Below are positions 43,778-63,569 of a stretch of 64,000 nt of DNA, in pieces. This DNA comes from Archangium violaceum (GTDB taxonomy: Bacteria > Myxococcota > Myxococcia > Myxococcales > Myxococcaceae), in the NCBI RefSeq assembly GCF_016887565.1, contig NZ_CP069396.1:3685001-3749000 (forward strand), written 5' to 3'. A program made the position numbers and the translations under genes. Position 1 is the first letter of the stretch, and the number at the start of each line of letters is the position of its first letter. Below the pieces are notes generated by a model. It made no database searches and was not told where the DNA came from. It saw only the letters and a program-made list of their open reading frames with translations.

Positions 43778-45379
43778 ATGCAGCTCATCATGAACCCGGG
43801 CCAGCTGGATGAGCAGGTCTTCGAGCTTTCCGACGACGCCGTCACGATCGGGCGTACGAAGGAGAGCTCCATCTGCGTGCTTCACAAGAGCCTGTCGCGG
43901 CGGCACGCGTTGCTGCAGCGCGAGGGTGAGCGTCTCTTCCTGATCGACCTGGACAGCAAGAACGGGACGTTCGTCAACGACCTGCGCATCCAACGCTGCG
44001 AGCTGTTCGGGGGAGAGATCTTCCAGTGTGGCGAGGTGCGCTTCAAGCTGGTGCCCCTCTCCCGCGAGATCGCCCTGGATCTGCTGCCGACGCAGGTGCA
44101 GGCGCTCCAGACCCGATTCTCTCCCGCCTCGATGGTCGACCTGCTCGAGGCGATGCCCGAGCCCGGGAGCACCACCGCCCTGAAGGTGAAGCACGGGCGA
44201 GCGGAGGACCGGGCCAGGGACAAGCTCCAGGTGCTGCTCAAGGTGAGCCAGCTCCTCTCCTCGCCCGACTCCATCGACGCGCTGATGGAGCGCGTGCTGC
44301 AACTCGTCTTCCAGATCATGCAGGTGGACCGGGCGACCGTGCTCCTGGTGGACCCCGCCAGCGGGCAGTTGCGTCCCCGGGTGGCGAAATCCCTGACGGG
44401 CGAGCTCCCCACGGGCCAGTTCTACAGCCAGCACATCGTCGACTACGTGCGCACGCACAGCGTGGCGGCGCTCTTCTCCGACGCCCGCGTGGACCCGCGC
44501 CTGGGCAATGCCGACTCGGTCTTCCAGCAGTCCATCCGCTCGTCCATGTGCGCTCCGCTCAAACCCCGGGACGAGCTGCTGGGCGTGCTGTACGTGGACA
44601 ACCTCACGCGGCCCCATGGCTTCTCCGAGGAGGACCTGGAGTTCCTCACCGCCTTCGCCAACCAGGCCGCTATCGCGCTCGACAACTCGCTGCTGCGCCA
44701 GCGCATCGAGGAGGAGGCCGTGCTGCGCAACACCTATCTGCGCTTCTTCCCCCCGGCCACCCTCAAGAAGCTACAGCTCACGCGCAGCGCGCCCCTGGAG
44801 GTCATCGAGACGGAAGTGACGATCCTCTTCGCGGACATCTGCCAGTTCACCGCCCTGTCCTCCACGCTCGAGCCCCGGCAGGTGGTGGACCTGCTCAACG
44901 AGTACTTCCCGGTGATGGCGGAGATCGTCTTCCGGCACGAGGGGACGTTGGAGAAGTACATCGGCGACGCGCTGATGGCGGTGTGGGGCGCGCCGTTCGC
45001 GCACTCCGACGATGTCGACCGGGCCGTGCGCGCGGCGGTGGAGATGCAGCAGGCGCTGGCCGGGTTGAACGCGCGCTGGCGGGCCCAGGGCCGGGCGGAG
45101 ATCCAGATCCACGTGGGCCTCAACACGGGCCGGGTGGCGGCCGGCAACATCGGCTCCGAGCAGTACGTGCAGTACGCCACCATCGGTGACGCCACCAACG
45201 TTGCGAGCCGGGTGTGCTCCGTCGCCGGACCGGGGGAGATCTGCCTCACGCACACCACCCTCGAGGGCTGGCCCGAGCGGTCCTTTTCCGTCTCGCCCCT
45301 GCCTCCAGCCCTGGTCAAGGGGAAGAAGGAGGCGCTGAGGATCTACCGCGTGGAGTGGTGCGGAGAGCCCACGCAGTGA
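43778..45379 (+). CDS. FHA-GAF-class III adenylate/guanylate cyclase
   Basis: 533 residues. An FHA domain (about 20-92) has I-G-R-T, S-R-R-H and N-G-T-F-V-N, the phosphothreonine-binding set. A GAF domain follows (about 150-310), beginning D-K-L-Q-V-L-L-K-V and ending with A-N-Q-A-A-I-A-L-D-N. A short linker leads to a class III cyclase (about 345-520): T-I-L-F-A-D-I-C-Q-F-T for metal binding, K-Y-I-G-D-A-L-M-A-V-W-G and G-D-A-T-N-V-A-S-R for base and transition-state residues. It should make cAMP (or cGMP) in response to a phosphoprotein and a small ligand. No membrane span is seen. Convergent with a hybrid kinase gene (18 bp). Confidence 0.93.
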   Translation: MQLIMNPGQLDEQVFELSDDAVTIGRTKESSICVLHKSLSRRHALLQREGERLFLIDLDSKNGTFVNDLRIQRCELFGGEIFQCGEVRFKLVPLSREIALDLLPTQVQALQTRFSPASMVDLLEAMPEPGSTTALKVKHGRAEDRARDKLQVLLKVSQLLSSPDSIDALMERVLQLVFQIMQVDRATVLLVDPASGQLRPRVAKSLTGELPTGQFYSQHIVDYVRTHSVAALFSDARVDPRLGNADSVFQQSIRSSMCAPLKPRDELLGVLYVDNLTRPHGFSEEDLEFLTAFANQAAIALDNSLLRQRIEEEAVLRNTYLRFFPPATLKKLQLTRSAPLEVIETEVTILFADICQFTALSSTLEPRQVVDLLNEYFPVMAEIVFRHEGTLEKYIGDALMAVWGAPFAHSDDVDRAVRAAVEMQQALAGLNARWRAQGRAEIQIHVGLNTGRVAAGNIGSEQYVQYATIGDATNVASRVCSVAGPGEICLTHTTLEGWPERSFSVSPLPPALVKGKKEALRIYRVEWCGEPTQ

Positions 45380-49805: not shown

Positions 49806-49992
49806 CGGTCCGCCTCGTGGAGGGAGAAGAGACGGGGTCATGCTAGCGCGGCGTCGGGCCCGGGAGGGCTGATTCTGGTGGGCCCGGAAGGAGGCCTGAC
49901 AGGATGGAAAAGGGCAGGTGGCCGGGCTGCCCCGCACCACGTGATGGATTCCGTTGGCGGGCCCGACTTCCGCCGTTAAATCACCGGCTCCC

Positions 49993-52900
49993 ATGCACAA
50001 GACGCACCTCGTTGGAGCCCGGACCCACAACCTTCAATCCCTGTCGGTGGATCTCTCCGAGGGAGAGCTGGTGTGCCTCACCGGCGTGTCCGGCTCCGGC
50101 AAGTCCAGCCTCGCGCTGGACACCCTGTATGCGGAGGGCCAGCGCCGCTTCGTCGAGAGCTTCAGCCCGTACGCCCGGCAGTTCCTCGAGCGGCTGGAGC
50201 GGCCCCCGATGGACAACCTGGAGCCCGTGGCGGCGGGCGTGGCGGTGGACCGGCGCGCTCCGGTGAAGAGCTCGCGCTCCACCGTGGCCACCCTGGCCGA
50301 CGTGGAGGCGTATCTGTCCGCGCTCTTCACCCGTGAGGCCATGCCTGTGTGCCCGACGTGTGAGGTCGAGGCGGTGCGAACGGACGCGGGCGTGGCGGCG
50401 CGGGCCACCCTGGCCGCCGAGCCCGATGTGCTCGCCGTGGTGGCCTTTCCCCTGCGGATCGCGGACACCGCCGAGTTCCTCGACGTGCGCGCGCGGTTGT
50501 TGAAGGAGGGCTTCCACCGGCTGGTGGTGCGCGGCGAGGTGCGGGAGTTGGAGTCACTGCGGCCCTCGGAGGCCACCGACTCCGCCGGCGTGGCGCACGT
50601 GGTGGTGGACCGGCTGAAGCTGGCCGAGGCGCAGCTGGGCCGGGTGACGGCAGCGCTGGAGTCGGCGTGGTCGATGGGCAATGGCGAGGCGGTGGCCTTC
50701 ACGCCCGCGGGTGTCCGGCGCATCCGCCGGGGCCTGGTGTGCCCCAAGTGCTCGCGCGAGTTCGAGCAGGCCCGGCCCGGTCTCTTCAGCTACCAGTCGC
50801 CCACCGGCGCCTGCCCCACGTGCCGGGGCTTCGGCCGCACCATTGGCATCGACTGGGACAAGGTGGTGCCCAACCCGACGCTGAGCCTGGAGAAGGGGGC
50901 CATCCGCCCCTGGTCGGGCAAGACGTCCGAGTGGGAGCGGAAGATGCTGTTCCGCTACGCGCGCGAGCAAGGGATTCCCCTGGACGTGCCCTGGGCGCGG
51001 CTCACCCCGGCGCAGCGGGAGCGGGTGCTGGAAGGGGAGGGTGATTACGACGGTGGCCGCGTCTACCCGGGCGTGCGCGCGTGGTTCCGTTGGATGGAGA
51101 GCCGCACGTACAAGATGCACGTGCGCGTGCTGCTCTCGCGCTACCGCGCCTACTCGCTGTGCGAGAGCTGCCAGGGCGCGCGTCTCAACGAGTCCGCGAG
51201 GGCCTGGCGCGTGGGCGGGCTGGACCTGGCCGCGTGGCACGGGCTGGAGCTGTCCGAGGCCCGGGAGCGCCTGGACGCCCTGCGGACCCATACGGGCCAG
51301 GGCGAGCTGGTGCGCCGCGAGCTGGCCGGCCGCCTGGGTTACCTGGAGCGGGTGGGCCTGGGCTACCTCACGCTGGACCGGCCCGCGCGCACGCTGTCCG
51401 GCGGCGAGGCGCAGCGCGTGTCCCTCACCGCGGCGCTGGGGACGTCGCTGACCGGGGCGCTCTTCGTCCTCGACGAGCCCACCGTGGGCCTGCACCCGGC
51501 CGACGTGGGCCCCCTCACCGGTGCCATGGCCGAGCTGGCCACCCGGGGCAATATCGCCCTCGTCATCGAGCATGACCCGCTCGTCATCCGCTCCGCCCAT
51601 CGCGTGCTGGAGCTGGGGCCCGGGGCCGGCAAGCACGGTGGGAAGCTGTGCTTCGACGGGACGCCGCAGGTGCTGGCGAAGCGCGCGGATCTGCCCACGG
51701 GCCGGCTGCTGGCGGGCACCGAGGAGGTGAAGCGCACGCCACGCGAGCGCATCGGCGAAATCGTGGTGCGCAACGCCCGGGCGCACAACCTCCAGGGCGT
51801 CTCCGTGCGCGTACCGCTGGGCGTGCTGTGCGCCATCACCGGGCCGAGCGGCTCGGGGAAGAGCACCCTGATGGACGAGGTGCTGTACCGCCACCTCGGA
51901 CGCGCCCTGGGTGAGAAGGACGTGGAGGTGCCCGGCGAGGCCGACGGTGTGGACGGCCTGGAGGCCGTGGAGCGCGTCACCTTCGTGGACCAGTCTCCGC
52001 TGGGGCGCACCTCGCGCGGCAACGCGGCCACGTACACCAAGGCGTGGGATCGGATCCGCGATCGCTTCTCCTCCGAGCCCGAGGCCGAGGTGCGGGGCCT
52101 CACCTCGGCGCACTTCTCCTTCAACGTGGACAAGGGGCGCTGCGAGGCCTGCTCGGGCGAGGGCTACGAGACGGTGGAGATGCAGTTCCTCGCGGACGTC
52201 TCCCTGCTGTGCCCGGTGTGCCGGGGCCGCCGCTTCAAGGAGGAGGTGCTGGCCGTCCGGCACCACGGCCTCTCCGTGGCGGACGTGCTCGAGCTGACCG
52301 TGGACGAGGTGCTGGAGCGCTTCGCCGGTGACAAGGCGCTGGTGCGCGCGCTGGGACCCGTGTCCCGGCTGGGCCTGGGGTACCTGCCCCTCGGCCAGCC
52401 CCTGTCCACCCTGTCCGGTGGCGAGGCCCAGCGCCTCAAGCTGGCGCGGGCCCTGGCCAGCGAGGCGAAGGGCTCGCTCTTCCTCATCGACGAGCCGAGC
52501 GCCGGTCTGCACGACGCGGACGTGCGTCAGGTGCTCGCCGCGCTGCACGAGCTGGTGGACCGTGGCGCGAGCGTCATCGTGGTGGACCATGACCTCGTCG
52601 TCATGCGGGGCGCGGATTGGATCATCGACCTGGGTCCCGGTGGTGGCCGCAATGGCGGGCGCCTGGTGGCCGAGGGCACTCCGGAGCAGCTCGCCAGGGG
52701 GCAGGGCCTCACCGCGGCGGCGCTGCGCGGGGAGCTGGGCACGGCGGTGGTGCCCGGGAAGCGCGGCAAGGGCGCCCCGGAGGTGCCTCCCGCCATCGAG
52801 GTGGAGCACGCGCGCGAGCACAACCTGCAGGAGGTGTCCTGCCGGATTCCGCTGGGGAAGATGACGGTGGTGACGGGGCCGAGCGGCTCGGGCAAGAGCT

Positions 52901-55293
52901 CGCTCGTCTTCGACGTGGTGTTCGCCGAGGGCCAGCGGCGCTTCCTGGAGACGCTGACGCCGTACGCGCGCCAGTTCCTCCCCACCATGCCGCGCCCGGA
53001 CGTGGAGCGCATCAGCAGCATCCCGCCGTCGGTGGCGCTGGAGCAGCGCACCTCGCGCGCGGGCGCCACCAGCACCGTGGCCACCGTCACCGAGGTGGCC
53101 CACTATCTGCGCCTCCTCTTCGCCAAGCTGGGCCAGCCGCACTGTCCCCGGGATGGTGAGCCCATCGCCGCCACCACGCCCGAGGCCCTCTACGCGCAGC
53201 TCACCGGGATGAAAGGGGATGGCACCGTGCTCGCCCCCGCGGTGCGTGCGCGCAAGGGTACGTACCTGGACGTCTTCACCGCCGCCGCGCGCGCGGGCAT
53301 CGAGACGGCCATCGCGGATGGGAAGGTGGTGTCCACGGACCAGCCGCCCCAGCTCGTGAAGTCGCGCGAGCACGACATCGACCTCGTGATGTACCAGGGC
53401 AAGCTGGCGAAGCTGCCGCGCGAGGTTTTCGACAAGGCCCTCACCTGGGGCAAGGGCGCGTTGAAGGTGCGCACCGGTGGCAACAAGGAGACGCTCCTGT
53501 CCAGCGAGCGCACCTGTCCCGTCTGCGGCTTCTCCGTGCCGGAGATGGACCCGCGCTGGTTCTCCTTCAACACGAAGCAGGGCCGGTGTGTCGACTGCGA
53601 GGGCACGGGCGTGGAGGGGGGCGCGGAGGCCCTGGCGGAGGGACGCACGGAGTCGTGCCGCACCTGCGAGGGCTCGCGCCTGGAGCCGGTGCCTCGCGCC
53701 GTGAAGCTGGAGGGCTCGCGCTACCACGAGGTGGTGCAGCAGTCCGTCACCGCCACGCTGGAGCAGGTGCGCGGGTGGAAGTTCCGTGGGGACCGGGCGC
53801 TGCTGGGGGAGCCTTCCCGCCAGGAGCTGCTGCGGCGCATGGAGTTCCTGGACCGCGTGGGACTGGGCTACCTGTCGTTGGATCGGAACGCGGCCACGCT
53901 CTCGGGTGGCGAGATGCAGCGGCTGCGGCTGTCCGCGCAGCTCGGCGCGGGCCTCACCGGCGCGATGTACGTGCTGGACGAGCCCACCATCGGTCTGCAC
54001 CCGCGCGACACGCACCGGCTGCTGTCCAACCTGCGCGCGCTGGTGGACACCGGCTCCACCGTGCTGGTGGTGGAGCACGACACGGACACCATCCGCGCGG
54101 CGGATCATCTCATCGAGCTGGGACCCACCGGCGGCCGTGGCGGCGGACGCATCCTCGCCGAGGGCTCGCCCGAGAAGGTGCTGCAGACCGAGGATGCTCC
54201 CACGGCCCGTGCGCTCCGAGAGCCCGCGGTGCTGGCGGGGTCGCCCCGGGGGGCGCCGGAGAAGTGGATTGAGTTGAAGGGGGCTCGGGCCAACAACCTG
54301 AAGGGCGCGGATCTGCGCATTCCCGTGGGCCGGCTCACGGTGGTGTCGGGCGTGTCGGGCTCGGGGAAGAGCACCCTGGTGCGCCAGGTGCTGTACCCGG
54401 CCCTGCGCGAGAAGCTCGGGCTGGTGACGACGCGTCCGGGGCCCTTCAAGTCCCTCACGGGCATGGAGGCCATCCGCCGCGTGCTGGCCGTGGATCAGTC
54501 GCCCATCGGGCGCACGCCGCGCTCGGTGCCAGCCACCTTCCTGGGCCTCTGGGACGAGCTGCGCCGGGCGTTCGCCGCCACTCCCGAGGCCAAGGTGCGG
54601 GGCTTCACTCCCGCGCGGTTCTCGTTCAACACCGCGGCCGGAGGCCGGTGCACGGCGTGCGAAGGGCAGGGGGCCATCTCGCACGAGATGTCCTTCCTCC
54701 CGGATGTCGTCACCCCGTGCGAGGCCTGTGGTGGGGCGCGCTTCGACGCGGCCACGCTGGAGGTTCGCTATCACGGGCTGACCATCGGCGACGCGCTGCG
54801 CCTGTCGGCGGACGAGGCCAAGGACGTCTTCCACGCGCTGCCCAAGGTGGCCGCGCCCCTGTCGTGCCTGTCGGATCTGGGCGTGGGTTATCTGCAGCTC
54901 GGCCAGGGGTCCAACACGCTGTCGGGCGGCGAGGCCCAGCGGCTGAAGCTGGCCGCGGAGCTCACGGCCTCCATGCGTCACGAGCCCACGCTGTACGTGC
55001 TCGACGAGCCCACCACGGGTCTGCACCTGGGGGACGTGTCGAAGTTGATCGCCTTCCTGCGTCGGCTGGTGGACCGGGGAGACACGCTGGTGGTCATCGA
55101 GCACCACCCGAGCGTCATCGCCTCGGCGGATCACGTGGTGGAACTGGGGCCCGAGGGAGGCGAGGCGGGCGGGAGCATCGTGGCGGAAGGGACGCCGCAG
55201 GAGGTGGCGCGGGTGAAGACGGCCACGGGCCGGGTGCTCAAGTCCGTTTTCGCCGCGGAGGAGCCAGCCCGGAAGGTGGCTCGGGGGCGGTGA
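49993..55293 (+). CDS. Double-length UvrA-like excinuclease ABC subunit A (two fused UvrA units, four ATPase cassettes)
   Basis: 1766 residues, close to twice the usual UvrA (about 940). Each half has the UvrA plan. Walker A motifs are G-V-S-G-S-G-K-S-S (near 30), G-P-S-G-S-G-K-S-T (near 617), G-P-S-G-S-G-K-S-S (near 961) and G-V-S-G-S-G-K-S-T (near 1454). Four L-S-G-G-E-(A/M)-Q-R signatures and four D-E-P-(T/S)-x-G-L-H Walker B ends follow. All four zinc C-x2-C pairs are intact (C-P-K-C/C-P-T-C, C-E-A-C/C-P-V-C, C-P-V-C/C-V-D-C, C-T-A-C/C-E-A-C). UvrA finds DNA lesions as a dimer and loads UvrB. A fused form may act as an intramolecular dimer (inference). The region where UvrB binds in classic UvrA is shorter and diverged in half one. 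No uvrB or uvrC lies nearby. Confidence 0.92.
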
Positions 55294-55476: not shown

Positions 55477-56208
55477 ATGCGCTGTCCTTCCTGCCAGAAC
55501 GAGAATGATGCCGGTGCCGCCTACTGCGACATGTGCGGCTTCGACCTGACGCCTTCCAAGCAGGCTCCGGCCGCCGAGAGCGCTCCCGCGCCCCTGCCGC
55601 CCCAGCCGGCCAACCCGCATCAGAAACGGCGCACCGTCTTCGAGCCGGATCCGGCGGCTCCTCCGCCCCCGCCCGCCCACCGGGGCGCGGACTTCTTCGC
55701 CAATCCTCCTCCTCCCCGGCCCACCTTCGATCCGCGCGACCCCTTCGCCGCCGCGTCCATCCCGCCTTCCCGGCCGGCTGCTCCTCCGCCGGCCGCTCCT
55801 CCGCCGCCCGCCGCTCCACCTCCGCGCCCCAAGGCCCGGACCCTCGTGGAGACCGCCAACGAGGGCTCCGCCGCGGGGCTCATCCGTGGCGCTCTCTTCG
55901 AGTACCGCGGCCCCACGGATCCAGGACGCGTCCACCCTCTGCGCGCCGGGCGCAACGTGCTCGGGCGCAACCCCGACTGTGACGTGGTCGTCGACGACGG
56001 GCGCGTGAGCGGTCAGCACGCCTTCCTGTTCATCCGCGCCGAGGACGCCTCGTTCATCGACGTCTCCAGCAACGGCTCCGTCGTCAATGGCTCCGTCGTC
56101 CATGGCGAGCAGGTGGTCCTGCAGAACCACGCGGTGATCACCCTCGGCGGGACGACGCTCGTGCTCGTCATCGTCCCCGAGCAGCTGCTGGCCCGCCGCT
56201 CTCCGTGA
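55477..56208 (+). CDS. Zinc-ribbon FHA-domain protein
   Basis: 243 residues. The N-terminus is a zinc ribbon (C-P-S-C at 3-6 and C-D-M-C near 17-20). A Pro/Ala-rich linker follows (about 30-125). The C-terminal FHA domain (about 135-235) has L-G-R-N-P-D-C-D-V, V-S-G-Q-H-A-F and N-G-S-V-V-N-G, the phosphothreonine-binding set (with S-G-Q-H in place of S-R-x-H). No membrane span. It opens the FHA-vWA-PP2C operon; the next gene starts within about 20 bp of its stop. Confidence 0.9.
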   Translation: MRCPSCQNENDAGAAYCDMCGFDLTPSKQAPAAESAPAPLPPQPANPHQKRRTVFEPDPAAPPPPPAHRGADFFANPPPPRPTFDPRDPFAAASIPPSRPAAPPPAAPPPPAAPPPRPKARTLVETANEGSAAGLIRGALFEYRGPTDPGRVHPLRAGRNVLGRNPDCDVVVDDGRVSGQHAFLFIRAEDASFIDVSSNGSVVNGSVVHGEQVVLQNHAVITLGGTTLVLVIVPEQLLARRSP

Positions 56209-56225
56209 CCCGGTCCAGACGGGGG

Positions 56226-58232
56226 ATGCCCATGCATCGCACAGTCGTCGTGACCGCGGGCCTGCTCACCGCGCTCCTGCTGGGGGCGCCCGCGCTCGCC
56301 GCGGACAATGGACTCACCGTGCTCGCGGCTCCGCCCGCGGCCAATGGGAAGACCCGGCTCCAGGTCGAGGTCAGGGACCTCGCCCTCCAGAAGGAGCTCC
56401 GGTCCGCTGGCGCCTCGCCGGACCGCTTCCGCATCGCCGCGGAGCAGGCCGGCGCGCAGGTGACGGCGGTGCGCCGCATGGCTGACTCCGCGGAGGGTCG
56501 CTACACGGTCCTCGCCTTCGACCAGTCCAGGTCCTTCTCCACGTACTGGCCGCGTGCCTTCGAGCTCGCCAAGGCCTACGTGGACGCGCTCGGGGCCCGG
56601 CCCCGGAACCACACCGTGGCGGTCATGACCTTCGGGCAGGGCAAGACCACGCATTGCGAGGAGACCACCGCCGCCAGACTCGAGGCCTGCCTGGCGAAGG
56701 TGCGGCAACTCGGCACCCATCAGCTCGTCACCCGGCTCAAGTTCTACATCCAGGATGCCGTGCGCGAGGCCGCGCGCGAGCAGCCGCTCCGCCGAGGTGG
56801 CTCGCGCGAGGTCATCGTCTTCACGGATGCCGGTGAGGAGTCGGCCGCGCTCAAGGTGAAGGACCTCGCGAGCGAGGCGCGCGAAAAGGGCGTGCGCATC
56901 CACGTGGTCGTCTTCAGTGGCAGGAGCAGCGGCAAGGGCATCGCCCAGCGGCTGGACGAGATGTCCCAGCTCGCCGAGGGCTCCGGCGGCCGCTACATCC
57001 AGGATGGGGACGTCGATGCCCGGCAGGAGCTCCCGGGGCTCGTGAGCGCGTTGGAGCACATCTACTGGCTGGACGTGGCCTTCTGTGGCGTGAAGCCCGG
57101 ACAGCGCTCGGATCGGCTCTCCATCGAGGCGCTCTCGGGCCGAGCCCCCATCGCGTGGAGCGACGCCGTCTCCTTCCGGCAGAGCGCCGAGGGCGGTGCG
57201 ACGGCCGCCTGCCCCAGTACGGTCGCCACGGGTTCCTCTCCGGTGCACTCGGGTACGGCGTCCACGCCCGGCGCCCGGGGGACGACCCTGCCTTCCGGCA
57301 CCGGAACGGGGACCCCCGGCTCCACCTCGCGACCTGGCTCCACGGCGGGTAACCCTGGTGCCTCGACACCGCCGGGGACCGCGAGCGGCACTCCCGGATC
57401 GGCGACGCAACCCGGGGGCATGACGGGGACTCCCGGTTCCGCGACGCAGCCGGGTGGCGTGGTGGGAACGCCCGGAGGCACACCACAGCCTGCTCCGGCG
57501 GCGGGTACTCCCGGAGCGACGCAGCCGGGTGGTTCGGGGACACCCGTGGTCGAGCTGGCTCCACGAGAGTTTCCCTGGTGGCTAATCGCGCTGCTCATCG
57601 CGCTGGGGCTGCTCCTGCTGCTCGCGATCATCGCGATGCTCACCCGGCGCCGCTCGGAGCCCGCCCCCGCTCCCCAGGTGTCTCCGCCCGTGGCCGCGCC
57701 GCCTCCCTCGCCTCCCCCGCAGCCCGAGCCTCCTCCGGCTGCTCCGGCCGTGTGGAAGGATCCCTTCGCCACCCTGCCGGAGACCCGGCTGGTGGTGACC
57801 CGGGGACCCCCCGGGCTCGAGCCCTTCTACCGGGTGCACAAGTCCACGTTCACCATCGGCGCCCGCTCGGGTGAGATGGACCTCGTCATCGAGCTGCCGC
57901 AGCTCAGTGGCCATCACGCGACGGTGCAGCTCTTCAAGGCGGGCAATGTCTTCATCAAGGACGAGAACTCCACCAACGGCACCTTCGTGGACGGGCGCCG
58001 CCTCGAGCCGGGCGAGCGCGTCCAGGTGAAACCCGGTCAACGCATCCTCCTGTCCCAGCACCTGGAGCTCACCCTGGAACAGCCCGGACTCCAGCCGGCC
58101 ACGGAACCTCCCCCGGCCGGTGCGCCCCTCGTCGCGGCGCCTCCATCGGCGCCCGCCGATTCTCCTCCCGCTGAAACCCCTCGGCCGAAGTCCCGGACCA
58201 TCTACGCACCCGCGAGAGGAGATGACGAATGA
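56226..58232 (+). CDS. Single-span membrane protein: extracytoplasmic vWA domain and cytoplasmic FHA domain
   Basis: 668 residues from ATG 56226 (an in-frame GTG at 56205 overlaps the previous stop). A signal peptide of about 25 residues is followed by a vWA domain (about 95-290) with MIDAS D-Q-S-R-S, V-A-V-M-T-F-G-Q and V-I-V-F-T-D-A. A low-complexity Gly/Thr/Pro linker (G-T-P-G-S-A-T-Q-P-G-G repeats, about 330-445) leads to a hydrophobic span (W-W-L-I-A-L-L-I-A-L-G, about 452-475). A Pro-rich segment and an FHA domain (about 525-615) with I-G-A-R-S-G, L-S-G-H-H-A-T and N-S-T-N-G-T-F-V-D complete it. The orientation suggests that an outside ligand or partner at vWA is relayed to a phosphothreonine reader inside. 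The PP2C gene overlaps its stop by 4 bp. Confidence 0.9.
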   Translation: MPMHRTVVVTAGLLTALLLGAPALAADNGLTVLAAPPAANGKTRLQVEVRDLALQKELRSAGASPDRFRIAAEQAGAQVTAVRRMADSAEGRYTVLAFDQSRSFSTYWPRAFELAKAYVDALGARPRNHTVAVMTFGQGKTTHCEETTAARLEACLAKVRQLGTHQLVTRLKFYIQDAVREAAREQPLRRGGSREVIVFTDAGEESAALKVKDLASEAREKGVRIHVVVFSGRSSGKGIAQRLDEMSQLAEGSGGRYIQDGDVDARQELPGLVSALEHIYWLDVAFCGVKPGQRSDRLSIEALSGRAPIAWSDAVSFRQSAEGGATAACPSTVATGSSPVHSGTASTPGARGTTLPSGTGTGTPGSTSRPGSTAGNPGASTPPGTASGTPGSATQPGGMTGTPGSATQPGGVVGTPGGTPQPAPAAGTPGATQPGGSGTPVVELAPREFPWWLIALLIALGLLLLLAIIAMLTRRRSEPAPAPQVSPPVAAPPPSPPPQPEPPPAAPAVWKDPFATLPETRLVVTRGPPGLEPFYRVHKSTFTIGARSGEMDLVIELPQLSGHHATVQLFKAGNVFIKDENSTNGTFVDGRRLEPGERVQVKPGQRILLSQHLELTLEQPGLQPATEPPPAGAPLVAAPPSAPADSPPAETPRPKSRTIYAPARGDDE

Positions 58233-59305
58233 GCCTCCCGCTCTACATCCACGGAAGTTCCGACGTCGGCCGCCAGCGTGCGCAGAACGAGGACTCCTTC
58301 CGCGTGGCCGCCCATCCGGATGGCTCCCGGCTGCTCCTCGTCTGTGACGGCATGGGAGGCCACGAGGCCGGTGAGGTGGCCAGCCAGGTGGCCAGCGACC
58401 GCATCGTCGAGGTGATCGCCGCCAGCTCGCCCGACAATCCGCCCCGCGCCCTCTATCAGGCGTTCGTCGAGGCCAACCAAGCCGTGCTCGACGCCGTGAG
58501 CACCCGGGGCGCGGAGGGCATGGGGACCACGGGCGTCGCCGCCTGGGTGATGGGCTCGCGCTGCTATGTGGGGTGGGTGGGTGACAGCCGCCTCTACCAG
58601 TTCCGGGCCGGCGTGCCGCTCGAGCGCACGAGAGATCACACGCGGGTCGCCCAGCTGGTCAGCCAGGGCATCCTCACGGCCGAGGAGGCCCGGCACCATC
58701 CCGAGGCGCACGTGCTCGTGATGGCGCTGGGAGGAAGCCCGGGCGTCCAGAAGATCTTCAAGCCCGAGGTGTGGACGGACCCGCTGGAGCTGCGGTCCGG
58801 TGATGTGGTGCTGCTGTGCAGCGACGGGCTGTACGACCTCATCGAGGACCACGAGCTGTATCCGCTCATCGAGGGCCGCGACTACCAGGAGGCGGTGGAT
58901 CGGCTCATCCAGACCGCCAACGAGCGCGGGGGGACCGACAACATCTCGGTCATCCTGCTCGTGGTGGGCCAGCCCGAGGTGCCTCGCGTGGCCCGTGGCT
59001 CCCAGGCGCCCCGGCGGGAGACGCTCCCGGATGGCATGCCGATGCTCGCGCCCGTGTCCCCGGAGCCGTCGGAGCCCGAGGTTCGCGCCACGCGGATTCC
59101 CGAACCCCGGACGGTGGAACCCGTTGCTCCGGTGGTGCCGGTGACCCCGAGTATGCCGGAGCAGACGGGGCGCACGGGGCGCCGGGTTCCCCTGTGGTGG
59201 TTGCTCGCCACGGGCCTCGTGGCCCTGGGGTTGGGCATCGGCCTGGGGCTGAGGGCCTCCAGCAAGACGACGCCCGCGGACTCCGGACAGGCCGAGGGCA
59301 AGTGA
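58229..59305 (+). CDS. PP2C-family protein phosphatase with C-terminal membrane anchor
   Basis: 358 residues. A complete PPM/PP2C domain (about 1-245) shows Q-N-E-D-S-F, C-D-G-M-G-G-H-E-A-G-E, G-W-V-G-D-S-R-L-Y, R-D-H-T-R, C-S-D-G-L-Y-D and G-G-T-D-N-I-S-V, giving the metal Asp set. It should dephosphorylate Ser/Thr on partners. A Pro-rich linker and one hydrophobic span near residues 310-335 (L-W-W-L-L-A-T-G-L-V-A-L-G) follow, then a short tail, so it is a C-tail-anchored phosphatase with its domain in the cytoplasm. Its start overlaps the previous stop (ATGA) and its stop overlaps the next start (TGATG), so all are translationally coupled. Confidence 0.95.
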   Translation: MSLPLYIHGSSDVGRQRAQNEDSFRVAAHPDGSRLLLVCDGMGGHEAGEVASQVASDRIVEVIAASSPDNPPRALYQAFVEANQAVLDAVSTRGAEGMGTTGVAAWVMGSRCYVGWVGDSRLYQFRAGVPLERTRDHTRVAQLVSQGILTAEEARHHPEAHVLVMALGGSPGVQKIFKPEVWTDPLELRSGDVVLLCSDGLYDLIEDHELYPLIEGRDYQEAVDRLIQTANERGGTDNISVILLVVGQPEVPRVARGSQAPRRETLPDGMPMLAPVSPEPSEPEVRATRIPEPRTVEPVAPVVPVTPSMPEQTGRTGRRVPLWWLLATGLVALGLGIGLGLRASSKTTPADSGQAEGK

Positions 59306-61488
59306 TGCACCGTGCGCTCCCGGCGCTGCTCGTCGTGGTCTCGCTGCTGCCGCGGGCCGCTCCCGCCCGGGGCGCGGAGACCTACTGCGTCGGCGGGTAC
59401 GATGGGACTCCGCCGAACGTGGTGGCCGCGTGCGATCTGCCCGCGGTCCGGGCGCTGCACCCAAGGTGGCACGCTCACACCTACGTGTTCGACGGCAAGG
59501 AGTGCTCCCTCTGCTACGACGAGGAGGACAACACCTGTCAGACGGTGTTCCTCGCCAGGAACCCGAGCTATCGGCGGGCCTACGAGTACGACTGCACCCG
59601 CCTGGGCGAGAGCCACCGGTCCGGTGAGCTGCTCGCCCATGTCATCGATGGCAAGCCCGTCTCGCCGCTTCCTCCTCCGCCTCCGATGCAGCTCGAGGCG
59701 CGGGTGGAGCGCATCAGCCCTGGCCCGTATACAGCCGGGGACAGGCTCTCCGTGGTGGGGGCCGTTCGCGACGACACGGGCCTGTTGCGCCGGCTCTCGG
59801 GAGGACTCTTCCGCATCGTGGATGCCAGCGGGAAGAGCACCGAGCACCGGGGGACCGTGCAGCCGGATGGCACGGTGGTGGCCGATTTCATCCTTCCGCC
59901 CACCGCCTCCGCTCGCATCGAGTTCGTTCCCGACAAGCCTCCGCTCGCCCAGGGCGAGACGCTCCGCGCGGCGGCTTCCGAAGCCCAGGAGCTGAAGGTG
60001 GAGGTCTGCGGCTTCCGGGCGCGGGTCGTGCAGCCCTCCGTGCACGAGTCCCTCGTGGCCGGGCAGTCCACCTTGCTGAGCGCCAGGCTCTTCGATGCGG
60101 CGGGACAGGTACCGGTGACAGCGCCTCCCGCGGGGCTCTCACTGGAGTTCACCGTGCAGGTCCAGGAAGAGAAGCCGGTGACGCTCTCCGCCGATACCTC
60201 GCTCTCGGCCACGTGGATTCCCCCCGCCTCACCCAAGCCGCGCGAGGTGCGTATCCGCGCGGGCGGGCGCGCGGGCGAGCACGTGGTGTGTCCCACGGAA
60301 GAGGTCATCGCCAAGGTGAGCGATCTCGGGCTCGGATTCGACACCTCGGCTCTGCCGCGCACCTGCTACGTCGGGCTTCCGTGCCAGGGCACGGTACGGC
60401 TCGTCCGTCCGGAGCCCGGGCCTGGTCGCCAGCAGGTGGACGCGCTCCTGACGGATCCCCAGGTGGTGGTTCGCGTGGTGGACACGGGCGAGGAGCGCTA
60501 TCGCGGGCCTCCCCGAGCGGATGACCGGTACGCGTTCAACGTCACCTACGCCGAATACGGGGCCGCGAGCTGGTCGATCGTCTTCCAGACGCCGCGAGGG
60601 CCCATCACCATGCCCTCTCACGAAATCCAGGTTCGTCCCCAGCTGAAGCTGGAGCTACCGGCGCAGCTGGACTTCGGAACCGTCACGGCGGGCACCTCCG
60701 TGGAGCGGGCCTGCCAGAAGCTGGACTTCAGCCAATCCCAGGCCGTCGAGGAGCAAGGTTTCCTCATTCGCGCCGAGGGGCTCGAAGGGTGTCAGGCCCG
60801 TCCGGTGCTGATGGCTCCGAACGCGGCGGGAGGGACGGACTGGCTCGAGCTGGTGACCGCGTCCGATGAGAGCGCGCTGAAGATTCGCGCGCTGGATCCG
60901 AAGGCTCGCTGGGTCGACATCTGCCTCGAGGTGCCCCGGTGCGCCGGAGAGGTGTCACCGGACCCGGCCGTGCTGCGCGTGGTTCCGCTCACCTCCGAGT
61001 TCAAGGTCCAGGAGAAGACGGTACGTCTGCGCTGGAAGGTCGAGGGCCGTGGCTTCCTCGGCTGTCACGGCGCGTGGGTGTGGTCCTCCCTGGGACTGCT
61101 CGGCTTCGGGGTCCTGCTCGCGGGTTTCACGCAGCCCGCGCGCTTCCCGTCCGGTGCGTCCATTCGCGTGGCCGGGAGCGAGCGCGGCATCCGTCAATCC
61201 GCCTCCATCCTCCTGCGGGACTGTCCTGGCAGCAGCCCGGGTTTCTACCGTGACGCCCGGCTGGGACTGCACGGCGATGGCGAGGTCAAAGGCCGCACCC
61301 GGAACGCGGTCATCCTCCTGCGCGCCACCCGCGGTGCTGGCGTAGTGCTGACGGGCACGGGTCCCCTGGAGCAGCAGGACCGTCGCACCCTCAAGTGGGA
61401 GCCGGTGGCCGACCTCGCCCAGGGGCACGTTCCTTCTCCCTCGGTGCTGTATCGGGCCGGGGGCACGTACTTCAAGGTGGAGCTCTAA
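59305..61488 (+). CDS. Large single-span envelope protein with paralogous C-terminal cytoplasmic module
   Basis: 727 residues, not recognised as a known family. A signal peptide (about 1-24) is followed by a Cys-containing N-terminal region, then beta-rich, Ig-like stretches (about 130-460). A domain starting L-E-L-P-A-Q-L-D-F-G-T-V (about 450-575) precedes a hydrophobic span (W-V-W-S-S-L-G-L-L-G-F-G, about 592-612). The C-terminal 115 residues (A-S-I-R-V-A-G-S-E-R-G-I, G-F-Y-R-D-A-R-L-G-L) should be cytoplasmic. The L-D-F-G domain and the C-terminal module both recur in the next gene. That module might be a divergent FHA-like fold, but I see no clear motif. Confidence 0.8.
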   Translation: MHRALPALLVVVSLLPRAAPARGAETYCVGGYDGTPPNVVAACDLPAVRALHPRWHAHTYVFDGKECSLCYDEEDNTCQTVFLARNPSYRRAYEYDCTRLGESHRSGELLAHVIDGKPVSPLPPPPPMQLEARVERISPGPYTAGDRLSVVGAVRDDTGLLRRLSGGLFRIVDASGKSTEHRGTVQPDGTVVADFILPPTASARIEFVPDKPPLAQGETLRAAASEAQELKVEVCGFRARVVQPSVHESLVAGQSTLLSARLFDAAGQVPVTAPPAGLSLEFTVQVQEEKPVTLSADTSLSATWIPPASPKPREVRIRAGGRAGEHVVCPTEEVIAKVSDLGLGFDTSALPRTCYVGLPCQGTVRLVRPEPGPGRQQVDALLTDPQVVVRVVDTGEERYRGPPRADDRYAFNVTYAEYGAASWSIVFQTPRGPITMPSHEIQVRPQLKLELPAQLDFGTVTAGTSVERACQKLDFSQSQAVEEQGFLIRAEGLEGCQARPVLMAPNAAGGTDWLELVTASDESALKIRALDPKARWVDICLEVPRCAGEVSPDPAVLRVVPLTSEFKVQEKTVRLRWKVEGRGFLGCHGAWVWSSLGLLGFGVLLAGFTQPARFPSGASIRVAGSERGIRQSASILLRDCPGSSPGFYRDARLGLHGDGEVKGRTRNAVILLRATRGAGVVLTGTGPLEQQDRRTLKWEPVADLAQGHVPSPSVLYRAGGTYFKVEL

Positions 61489-61490
61489 CG

Positions 61491-63569
61491 ATGATGCTCG
61501 CGCAGCTCGTCCTGCCCCTGCTCCTCACCAGTGCGGCCGGCAGTGGCAACGAGATCGTCCTCATCCTCGACAACTCATGCTCCATGGGCGTGGAGGCCCG
61601 GGACCAGGCGACAGGTCGCCGGGTTCCACCCAATGATCCCGAGCGCGCGGCGGTGCTCGGGACGCTCGTCGTCGAGGGCCTGGCGCGTGGCTCGGCCGAC
61701 CGGTTCAGCGTGCTGGCCTTTGGCGATGGCAAGGAGGCCCCGCCTCGCGAGGCTCGGAGCGCGGACGACATTCGCGCACTGCCGTACTCCAATGGCACCT
61801 ACTTCCGCCGTCCGTTGGAAGAAGCGGGCAACCGGCTGCGAGGCTCGGCGCTCCAGAACCGGCTGTTCCTCTTCTTCACCGACGGCATTCCCGAGGATTT
61901 CAGGGACCCCGCCGAGGGTCCTCGCGCCCTTGGCCTCTCCGAATCGGCGGACTTCGAGACGCTGGTCATCGGCCTCTTCGGCAGCGAAGAGGTTCGTCAG
62001 ACGGGCGAGCAGTTCCTCCGGCCGCTGGCGCGCAACCCGCAGGACCTGGTCTTCGTCCAGACGCCGCGCGAGGTGATTGGCGCCTTCACCCGAGGCTACG
62101 CCCGCGTTCTGGGCTCGCGGCCGGAGACGGGCTCGCTGTCTCCCGGACAGTCGAAGACCTTCGAGGTGGGCAAGTACGTGGTGGAGGTGCTGGTGGCCAC
62201 CGCGTCCGCCTCGCCCGGGCCCGCGTATACCGCGAAGCTGGAAGGCCCCCAGGGTGACGTCCCTGCCCAGGCGTCCGGTGACAACGGCTGCCCGCCCGGC
62301 ATCCGCTATTCGGGCGCGCCCAGACTGTGCCAGCCGCCGCACCGCCACTATCAGGTCTTCCGCTCGCCCAACTCGCCGGACCAGCGCAGCCAGTGGACGC
62401 TGTCCCTGCCTCGGGGCTCGGGGCCTATCGATTACGGGCTCATCCTCCGTTACGACCTCGCGGCCTCGCTCGCCGTGCCGTCCACCGCGCGGGTGGGCGA
62501 GCCGGTGCAGCTCGATGCGCGGCTGCTCTTCCGTGGAAAGACCTTCGATGATGAGTCCTTCTTCCAGGCGGACGGCTTCACGGCCGTGGCCACCCTCGAG
62601 GGCCAGGAGGTACCCCTGCGCCACGCCGGAGGAGGGCGCTTCGTGGCGGACTGGACGCCTTCCCAGCTGTCGATGGATGGTGCCGCGACGCCCGTGCAGG
62701 TGACGTTCCGTAACGCGTGGATGGAGCAGTCCGCGCGCCGCTCCGTGCAGGTGGAGGGCTTCATCGACTTCGCCCTGGTGCCGGAGCCGGCCTCGCTCGA
62801 CTTCGGCGAGTGGCGGGGCGAGCGTCACGAGACGCGCCGGTGCTCCACGGTGGATCTGTCGCGTTCCACCAACGCGGGCCGCATCCCCATCACCTGCTCC
62901 TCGGAGGGGAGTGTGGAGGGCGGAGTGCTCTCCTGTTCGCCCGTGGCGGGCTCGGAGGCGGACCTGGGCAATGGCCGCAAGGGACAGCCTCTCAAGTACG
63001 AGGTGTGCTTCGCCGCCGAGGGCTGCTGCGGCCAGTTGGCTCCGCCGGGGCTCGGGGTGCGCTTCGCCGCGACCCACCCGCACTATTCCGCGGCCGCCGT
63101 GCTCGTCCCGGCGCGCGCGAAGGTGGACGAGACGGGCTGGCTGCGCTGCTGGTGGCCCTGGCTCGCCCTGGCCGGAGGAATGCTCTTCTTCGGCTGGGTC
63201 GTCATGGGCTTCGTCCGGCCGAACAACTTCGACCCGGCGGCCAGCGTCTACGTGGCCGGCTCGGAGATGGGGCTCAAGCGCGCATCGGCGCTCGTGCTGA
63301 ACGAGACTCCCGGAGGCCGGCGCGGCTTCTACCGCAACGCCCGCATGTGCCTGAACGCGGGAGGTGACTTCGTCCGTGCTCCGCGTGCGGCCGTGCTTGT
63401 ACTCGAGGCGGGGCCCGGTGGCTCCACGCGCTTCGTCACCGCCGCGGGCCTCGAGCGCAAGGTGCAGAGGACCGGGAAGTGGGAGCCCGTGCCGGCCGAG
63501 GAGCTGGCCCTCGGGTACACGCCCAACGTGGTGTATCGAGTGGGGAGCCTCTACTTGAAGTGGAGCTAG
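61491..63569 (+). CDS. Single-span vWA-ectodomain protein, paralogous C-terminus to its upstream neighbour
   Basis: 692 residues. The signal sequence is short (about 1-16). The vWA domain begins at once: V-L-I-L-D-N-S-C-S-M-G carries the MIDAS D-x-S-x-S, F-S-V-L-A-F-G-D-G and F-L-F-F-T-D-G-I-P-E the other vWA strands (about 20-225). Beta-rich segments, a domain starting P-A-S-L-D-F-G-E-W (about 425-545), a hydrophobic span (W-W-P-W-L-A-L-A-G-G-M-L-F-F-G, about 555-577) and a C-terminal module (A-S-V-Y-V-A-G-S-E-M-G-L, G-F-Y-R-N-A-R) follow. The shared modules show duplication with the 59305 gene. The vWA could bind a surface partner through Mg/Ca. It starts 2 bp after the previous stop. Confidence 0.88.
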   Translation: MMLAQLVLPLLLTSAAGSGNEIVLILDNSCSMGVEARDQATGRRVPPNDPERAAVLGTLVVEGLARGSADRFSVLAFGDGKEAPPREARSADDIRALPYSNGTYFRRPLEEAGNRLRGSALQNRLFLFFTDGIPEDFRDPAEGPRALGLSESADFETLVIGLFGSEEVRQTGEQFLRPLARNPQDLVFVQTPREVIGAFTRGYARVLGSRPETGSLSPGQSKTFEVGKYVVEVLVATASASPGPAYTAKLEGPQGDVPAQASGDNGCPPGIRYSGAPRLCQPPHRHYQVFRSPNSPDQRSQWTLSLPRGSGPIDYGLILRYDLAASLAVPSTARVGEPVQLDARLLFRGKTFDDESFFQADGFTAVATLEGQEVPLRHAGGGRFVADWTPSQLSMDGAATPVQVTFRNAWMEQSARRSVQVEGFIDFALVPEPASLDFGEWRGERHETRRCSTVDLSRSTNAGRIPITCSSEGSVEGGVLSCSPVAGSEADLGNGRKGQPLKYEVCFAAEGCCGQLAPPGLGVRFAATHPHYSAAAVLVPARAKVDETGWLRCWWPWLALAGGMLFFGWVVMGFVRPNNFDPAASVYVAGSEMGLKRASALVLNETPGGRRGFYRNARMCLNAGGDFVRAPRAAVLVLEAGPGGSTRFVTAAGLERKVQRTGKWEPVPAEELALGYTPNVVYRVGSLYLKWS

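Follow-up and report, generated by a model that had tools for sequence, protein, structure and literature searches.

An FtsZl1/Tubulin_2-type operon under putative phosphothreonine control in Archangium violaceum

An FHA reader and a PP2C eraser of phosphothreonine, encoded beside extracytoplasmic vWA domains in Archangium violaceum, raise the question of which kinase serves them and what they control. The genes lie at 55477-63569 of the window, by which we mean the whole 64,000-nucleotide stretch that was analyzed (positions 3685001-3749000 of a single 13.2 Mb contig); genes past its right edge are given in window-equivalent coordinates. An earlier, sequence-only reading had described them as a five-gene operon without a visible kinase.

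All five genes are co-directional on the + strand, and their junctions (-4, -4, -1 and +2 bp) confirm the tight run described in that reading. FHA1 (55477-56208) combines an N-terminal zinc ribbon (CPSC..CDMC), a proline-rich linker and an FHA domain at residues 148-231 (Pfam FHA, 2.5e-13); the zinc ribbon scores just under the Pfam cutoff (24.2 versus 25 bits), with its CxxC..CxxC pattern visible. The second protein, vWA-FHA (56205-58232; Pfam VWA 6.5e-11 and FHA 8e-15), has a signal peptide, a periplasmic vWA domain (MIDAS DQSRS at 106), a low-complexity linker, a transmembrane segment at about 460-478 and a cytosolic FHA domain at 550-616. The phosphatase (58229-59305; Pfam PP2C 9e-15) has all metal-site Asp motifs and a C-terminal transmembrane segment (322-340). 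P4 (59305-61488), for which no Pfam family matched, consists of a signal peptide, a Cys-rich periplasmic region, beta domains, a transmembrane segment (590-608) and a cytosolic domain in common with P5. P5 (61491-63569) starts with a signal peptide and a vWA domain (20-207) with intact MIDAS, matched weakly by Pfam VWA_2 (0.006), followed by beta domains, a transmembrane segment (550-575) and a cytosolic beta domain (585-692). By hydropathy, each of these membrane proteins has one transmembrane segment, signal peptides aside. The domain calls of the earlier reading (zinc-ribbon FHA, vWA-TM-FHA, tail-anchored PP2C, two single-span proteins with a matching module) were thus borne out by Pfam, hydropathy and the roughly 30% identity of P4 and P5. 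Its combination of extracytoplasmic vWA with cytosolic modules was likewise supported, as was the pairing of an FHA reader with a PP2C eraser, which implies a Ser/Thr kinase.

A promoter/terminator scan found no such site within the five-gene run. In the neighbourhood survey that the earlier reading had called for, the five genes stay together, with their order kept in 8 genomes; since there are also only 5 PF00481 PP2C matches genome-wide, the run is far beyond chance. Its 5' neighbour is a UvrA-like ORF of 1779 amino acids (49954-55293) that appears to comprise two UvrA-like halves with four P-loops; Pfam recognises the UvrA interaction domain at two places in it. The window contains a further FHA protein (43778-45379, 533 amino acids), with GAF-like and adenylate-cyclase-like regions by eye, that is not linked to the operon.

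The kinase was reported as absent from the window, and none is found there among the matches listed. It appeared to be missing because the window edge cuts the operon short: its last two genes, STK1 (72942-74408) and STK2 (74427-76124), encode Ser/Thr kinases and are located about 9 kb to the right of that edge. Between P5 and the kinases, the + strand encodes a small lipoprotein (63583-64047), a 125-aa protein (64060-64437), the Tubulin_2/FtsZl1 protein TUB (64536-67760), the membrane protein ROSS (67762-70155) and the membrane-anchored, MrfA-like protein MZB (70152-72926). A gap of 98 bp precedes TUB, and from TUB rightwards the gaps are +1, -4, +15 and +18 bp; after STK2, the next long ORF is on the opposite strand. 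Catalytic motifs are intact in both kinases, and the key residues of the PP2C, kinase and FHA domains are present. Because the genome has more than 150 kinase matches, kinase adjacency alone is weak evidence. Rather than a stand-alone device without a kinase, the five genes form the left-hand half of a predicted ten-gene operon centred on the FtsZl1/Tubulin_2 protein and completed by TUB, ROSS, MZB, STK1 and STK2. To the right, where the earlier reading had proposed to look for a linked kinase or MoxR ATPase, there are two kinases and, by Pfam, no MoxR.

The lipoprotein and 125-aa genes (63583-64437), which cross the right edge of the window, sit between P5 and TUB in 5 of 7 family copies and are absent from the other two (G063 and G122) as well as from G016, a genome of another myxobacterial family. 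G061 and G064 have paralogues of the 125-aa gene on the opposite strand, accompanied by further lipoprotein-like genes. The pair looks like a mobile or polymorphic, variable cassette.

TUB matches Tubulin_2 (PF13809) with 4e-55 and 187.8 bits (curated cutoff 27) and has the loops GLGGNGG and GGTGSG (AGGTGSG), the latter a GTP-binding loop of the GGGTG(S/T)G type. The GTP-loop pattern GG[TS]G[ST]G is found in 87/90 TUB relatives. A canonical FtsZ is encoded elsewhere in the genome, at 3191536.

No Pfam family matches ROSS. Its family profile aligns to TUB along the GTPase domain with 95.6% probability (E 1.1e-8; 92% and E 6e-7 for the domain alone), while unrelated control profiles reach about 0.1% probability. 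In the one AlphaFold model on which the fold of ROSS rests, that of the A. violaceum orthologue (pLDDT 86), the top 50 structure matches are all tubulin, BtubA or FtsZ (Z 14.0-15.8, about 263 residues, rmsd 4.2-4.8, model span 6-785). Foldseek with the same model gave no match with E below 0.001 and ranked pore-forming proteins first, which we read as matches to the long coiled-coil. The membrane segment of ROSS lies within its inserted middle part. We read ROSS, from profile and model, as a TUB paralogue and membrane-anchored pseudo-tubulin, the label "pseudo-tubulin" being chosen because the glycine (GTP) loop is absent in 52/52 ROSS proteins.

A Planctomycetota MAG has two Tubulin_2 genes in tandem (L121:9236-14843), an arrangement from which the TUB/ROSS pair possibly arose. 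In another MAG (G157, L107:10168-15744), an apparent frameshift, perhaps an assembly error, breaks the ROSS gene, with matches in two frames.

MZB matches PF09369 above cutoff, and its family profile aligns to MrfA/YprA (PDB 6znp) with E 1.3e-43 across most of the MrfA chain. Unlike MrfA, MZB has transmembrane helices at its N-terminus, and the Walker A Lys pattern is absent in Archangium. Among 34 relatives, the Lys pattern is found in 4, Arg in 13 and neither in 17, including Archangium, in whose clade Walker A has become LPDPTE-type and DExH has become SRVD. By sequence, MZB is a membrane-anchored MrfA-like pseudo-helicase with decayed ATPase motifs.

PF13809 was found in 11/195 Myxococcota genomes; every one of the six genomes of the genus is among them. 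The order FHA, vWA-FHA, PP2C, P4, P5, TUB, ROSS, MZB, STK, STK is kept in all 7 TUB-carrying genomes of the family, and within the genus the core components are near-constant (TUB 94-99% identical). In the other myxobacterial family (G016, locus L051; TUB 46% identical), the eight genes from FHA to MZB are in order and are followed by a kinase on the opposite strand. ROSS is present in 9/195 Myxococcota genomes, namely in 9/11 with TUB and 0/184 without TUB, the nine genomes corresponding to about four independent lineages.

A wider survey used 80 named loci from a genome-wide scan. The four-gene core, of which P5 is gene 1 (P5-TUB-ROSS-MZB), was found in Polyangium, Sandaracinus, Enhygromyxa, Lujinxingiaceae and Acidobacteria MAGs; the Plesiocystis locus has P5-TUB-ROSS, and in a Chromatiaceae locus the diverged fourth gene after ROSS is MZB. 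Of 46 loci whose upstream flank covers 9 kb or more, 10 have FHA and 9 have PP2C; because contigs end and flanks were limited to 10 kb, these counts are lower bounds. FHA and PP2C, and P4 with them, are mainly confined to one TUB clade. FHA and PP2C occur again in a separate lineage (L062), where FHA, PP2C, P5, TUB, an unassigned protein in the ROSS position, MZB and a kinase form a single run. As judged from the gene content of these loci, FHA and PP2C are an add-on, and the vWA-tubulin core is the constant part. Clustering of unexplained ORFs revealed no additional widely conserved neighbours; it did draw attention to loci of Chromatiaceae and Firmicutes whose fourth gene has diverged.

Three loci from gut MAGs of Clostridia and others (L115-L117) have a core-like layout: vWA, Tubulin_2, a protein of about 680 amino acids and one of about 1300-1500, with the vWA gene seen in L115 and L117. 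No informative Pfam family matched the third and fourth genes of these loci, the Firmicutes fourth gene included. The third is possibly a distant ROSS and the fourth a replaced fourth component.

The patchy distribution among Myxococcota would suit a biological-conflict (defence) system, in which the kinases and vWA proteins would detect an invader, and the MrfA-like membrane protein would act with the tubulin pair on foreign DNA or the membrane. The relation of MZB to an MrfA-type helicase points the same way. Kaur et al. (2020, PMC7159879) describe tubulin-vWA gene sets and sets of zinc-ribbon kinase, PP2C and vWA with GAP1-N2 GTPases, and assign them to predicted conflict systems that are enriched among multicellular bacteria. 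Each theme unites vWA with its partners in one neighbourhood, as here; in contrast to those systems, the Archangium operon has both together, with FHA readers added. However, PADLOC, used to search for known defence systems, returned only generic kinase matches and one weak PP2C match, and the operon has no recognisable variable effector, nuclease or FNIII protein. Pfam profiles revealed no P-loop GTPase there, of the GAP1 type or otherwise. The near-constancy of the core in the genus and the decayed helicase motifs of MZB also argue against defence, which we regard as rather unlikely.

P4 and P5 share about 289 amino acids at 30% identity, spanning the beta domain before the membrane, the transmembrane segment and the cytosolic domain. 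By eye, the cytosolic domain had been suspected to be a degenerate FHA domain, but profile comparison was negative both for the domain alone and with the transmembrane region. In a structure search with whole P5, vWA and Ig-like folds dominated, and the cytosolic domain was thus outside its reach. Assignment of the P5 vWA domain is secure despite the weak Pfam score, given profile and AlphaFold-model matches to vWA structures and an invariant MIDAS: D27, S29, S31 and D131 are unchanged in 32/32 relatives, and position 103 is T or S.

The P5 vWA domain aligns to the ArnAB structure 8s05 with Z 15.5. ArnA and ArnB of Sulfolobus are cytosolic archaellum regulators. They resemble the operon in having an FHA protein (ArnA) and a vWA protein (ArnB) under Ser/Thr phosphorylation (cited in PMC5898192), and differ from it in having no tubulin. 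A similar logic is seen in the threonine phosphorylation pathway of type VI secretion (T6SS), formed by PpkA (a kinase with an extracellular vWA domain), PppA and Fha (PMC3224232). That pathway also brings together an extracytoplasmic vWA domain, a Ser/Thr kinase, PP2C and FHA; unlike PpkA, STK1 and STK2 have no vWA domain, so that vWA is not fused to the kinase here. Both comparisons would fit a sensory phospho-relay, in which the periplasmic vWA domain reads an envelope signal, a loop of FHA, kinase and PP2C relays it, and the tubulin pair merely scaffolds a signalling patch. Across loci, however, it is FHA and PP2C that are optional and the vWA-tubulin core that is constant, and we consider such a relay quite unlikely.

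The operon could also encode a machine for secretion or transport, either T6SS-like or of an unnamed kind, that threonine phosphorylation would switch. In favour of this, FHA1 gives a weak TagH-like match (30.8 of 120 bits), and a reviewer suggested transport in the review published with the 2010 paper discussed below (PMC2875224). Yet a search for sheath genes placed the nearest VipB match more than 0.9 Mb away, and among the operon products none was recognised as a pore, sheath or outer-membrane component. We consider a secretion machine very improbable. The resemblance to TerY-P and vWA-MoxR-PP2C ternary systems drawn in the sequence-only reading did not hold either, as their core is not shared: by Pfam, no MoxR/AAA+ or TerD-type protein is found among the ten core proteins.

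Whether the cluster belongs to a known, named system has a divided answer. Operons of FtsZl1 (Tubulin_2, PF13809), vWA and protein kinase genes were predicted in 2010, with a proposed role in membrane remodelling (Makarova and Koonin, PMC2875224). A Tubulin_2 protein, a vWA gene and Ser/Thr kinases are shared with the Archangium operon, in which P5 lies upstream in the core and STK1 and STK2 downstream. According to the same source, the 2010 set includes Plesiocystis pacifica, whose locus (L071) carries P5, TUB and ROSS. On the other hand, the main text of that paper makes no mention of FHA, phosphatase or helicase. Relative to this text, ROSS as a pseudo-tubulin and the MrfA-like protein are additions; some such genes may be among its unnamed families. 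A predicted GTPase or OmpA, frequent but non-obligatory FtsZl1 partners, was absent by Pfam from all operon proteins. In the literature searched, no operon of this kind had been studied experimentally.

In our view, the operon is probably an FtsZl1/Tubulin_2-type operon brought under phosphothreonine control, acting as a switched tubulin scaffold at the inner membrane. TUB would assemble on the cytosolic face of this membrane, where ROSS would serve as anchor or as a fixed partner that does not cycle, and the cytosolic domains of P4 and P5 would, together with ROSS, couple the TUB filament to ligand binding by the periplasmic vWA domains. STK1 and STK2 would phosphorylate threonines of one or more operon components; docking of FHA1 and vWA-FHA on these phosphothreonines would drive assembly, and their removal by PP2C would reset the system. 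We infer the FHA ligands, the kinase substrates and filament formation itself. As output, the operon may remodel the membrane, form a scaffold that spans the envelope, or serve transport.

Two questions were raised by a referee of the FtsZl1 paper, in the review published with it (PMC2875224). One was how periplasmic vWA proteins could cooperate with a tubulin relative in the cytoplasm. The loci suggest an answer, in that the vWA partners cross the membrane once and carry a conserved domain on the cytosolic side. The other was whether filaments can be formed by an FtsZl1 that lacks the T6-H7 and C-terminal parts. In ROSS, the C-terminal tubulin part comes after a long insertion, and parts thought missing from FtsZl1 may therefore be displaced. 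The loci further name candidate on/off enzymes, the kinases and PP2C, for a tubulin system. More tentatively, it is possible that the operon encodes a two-tubulin machine, in which a GTP-cycling tubulin and a membrane pseudo-tubulin are mechanically tied, via the single-span proteins, to integrin-like MIDAS vWA ectodomains and switched by kinase, phosphatase and FHA. If true, this machine would be a prokaryotic counterpart, in logic, of integrin-cytoskeleton coupling.
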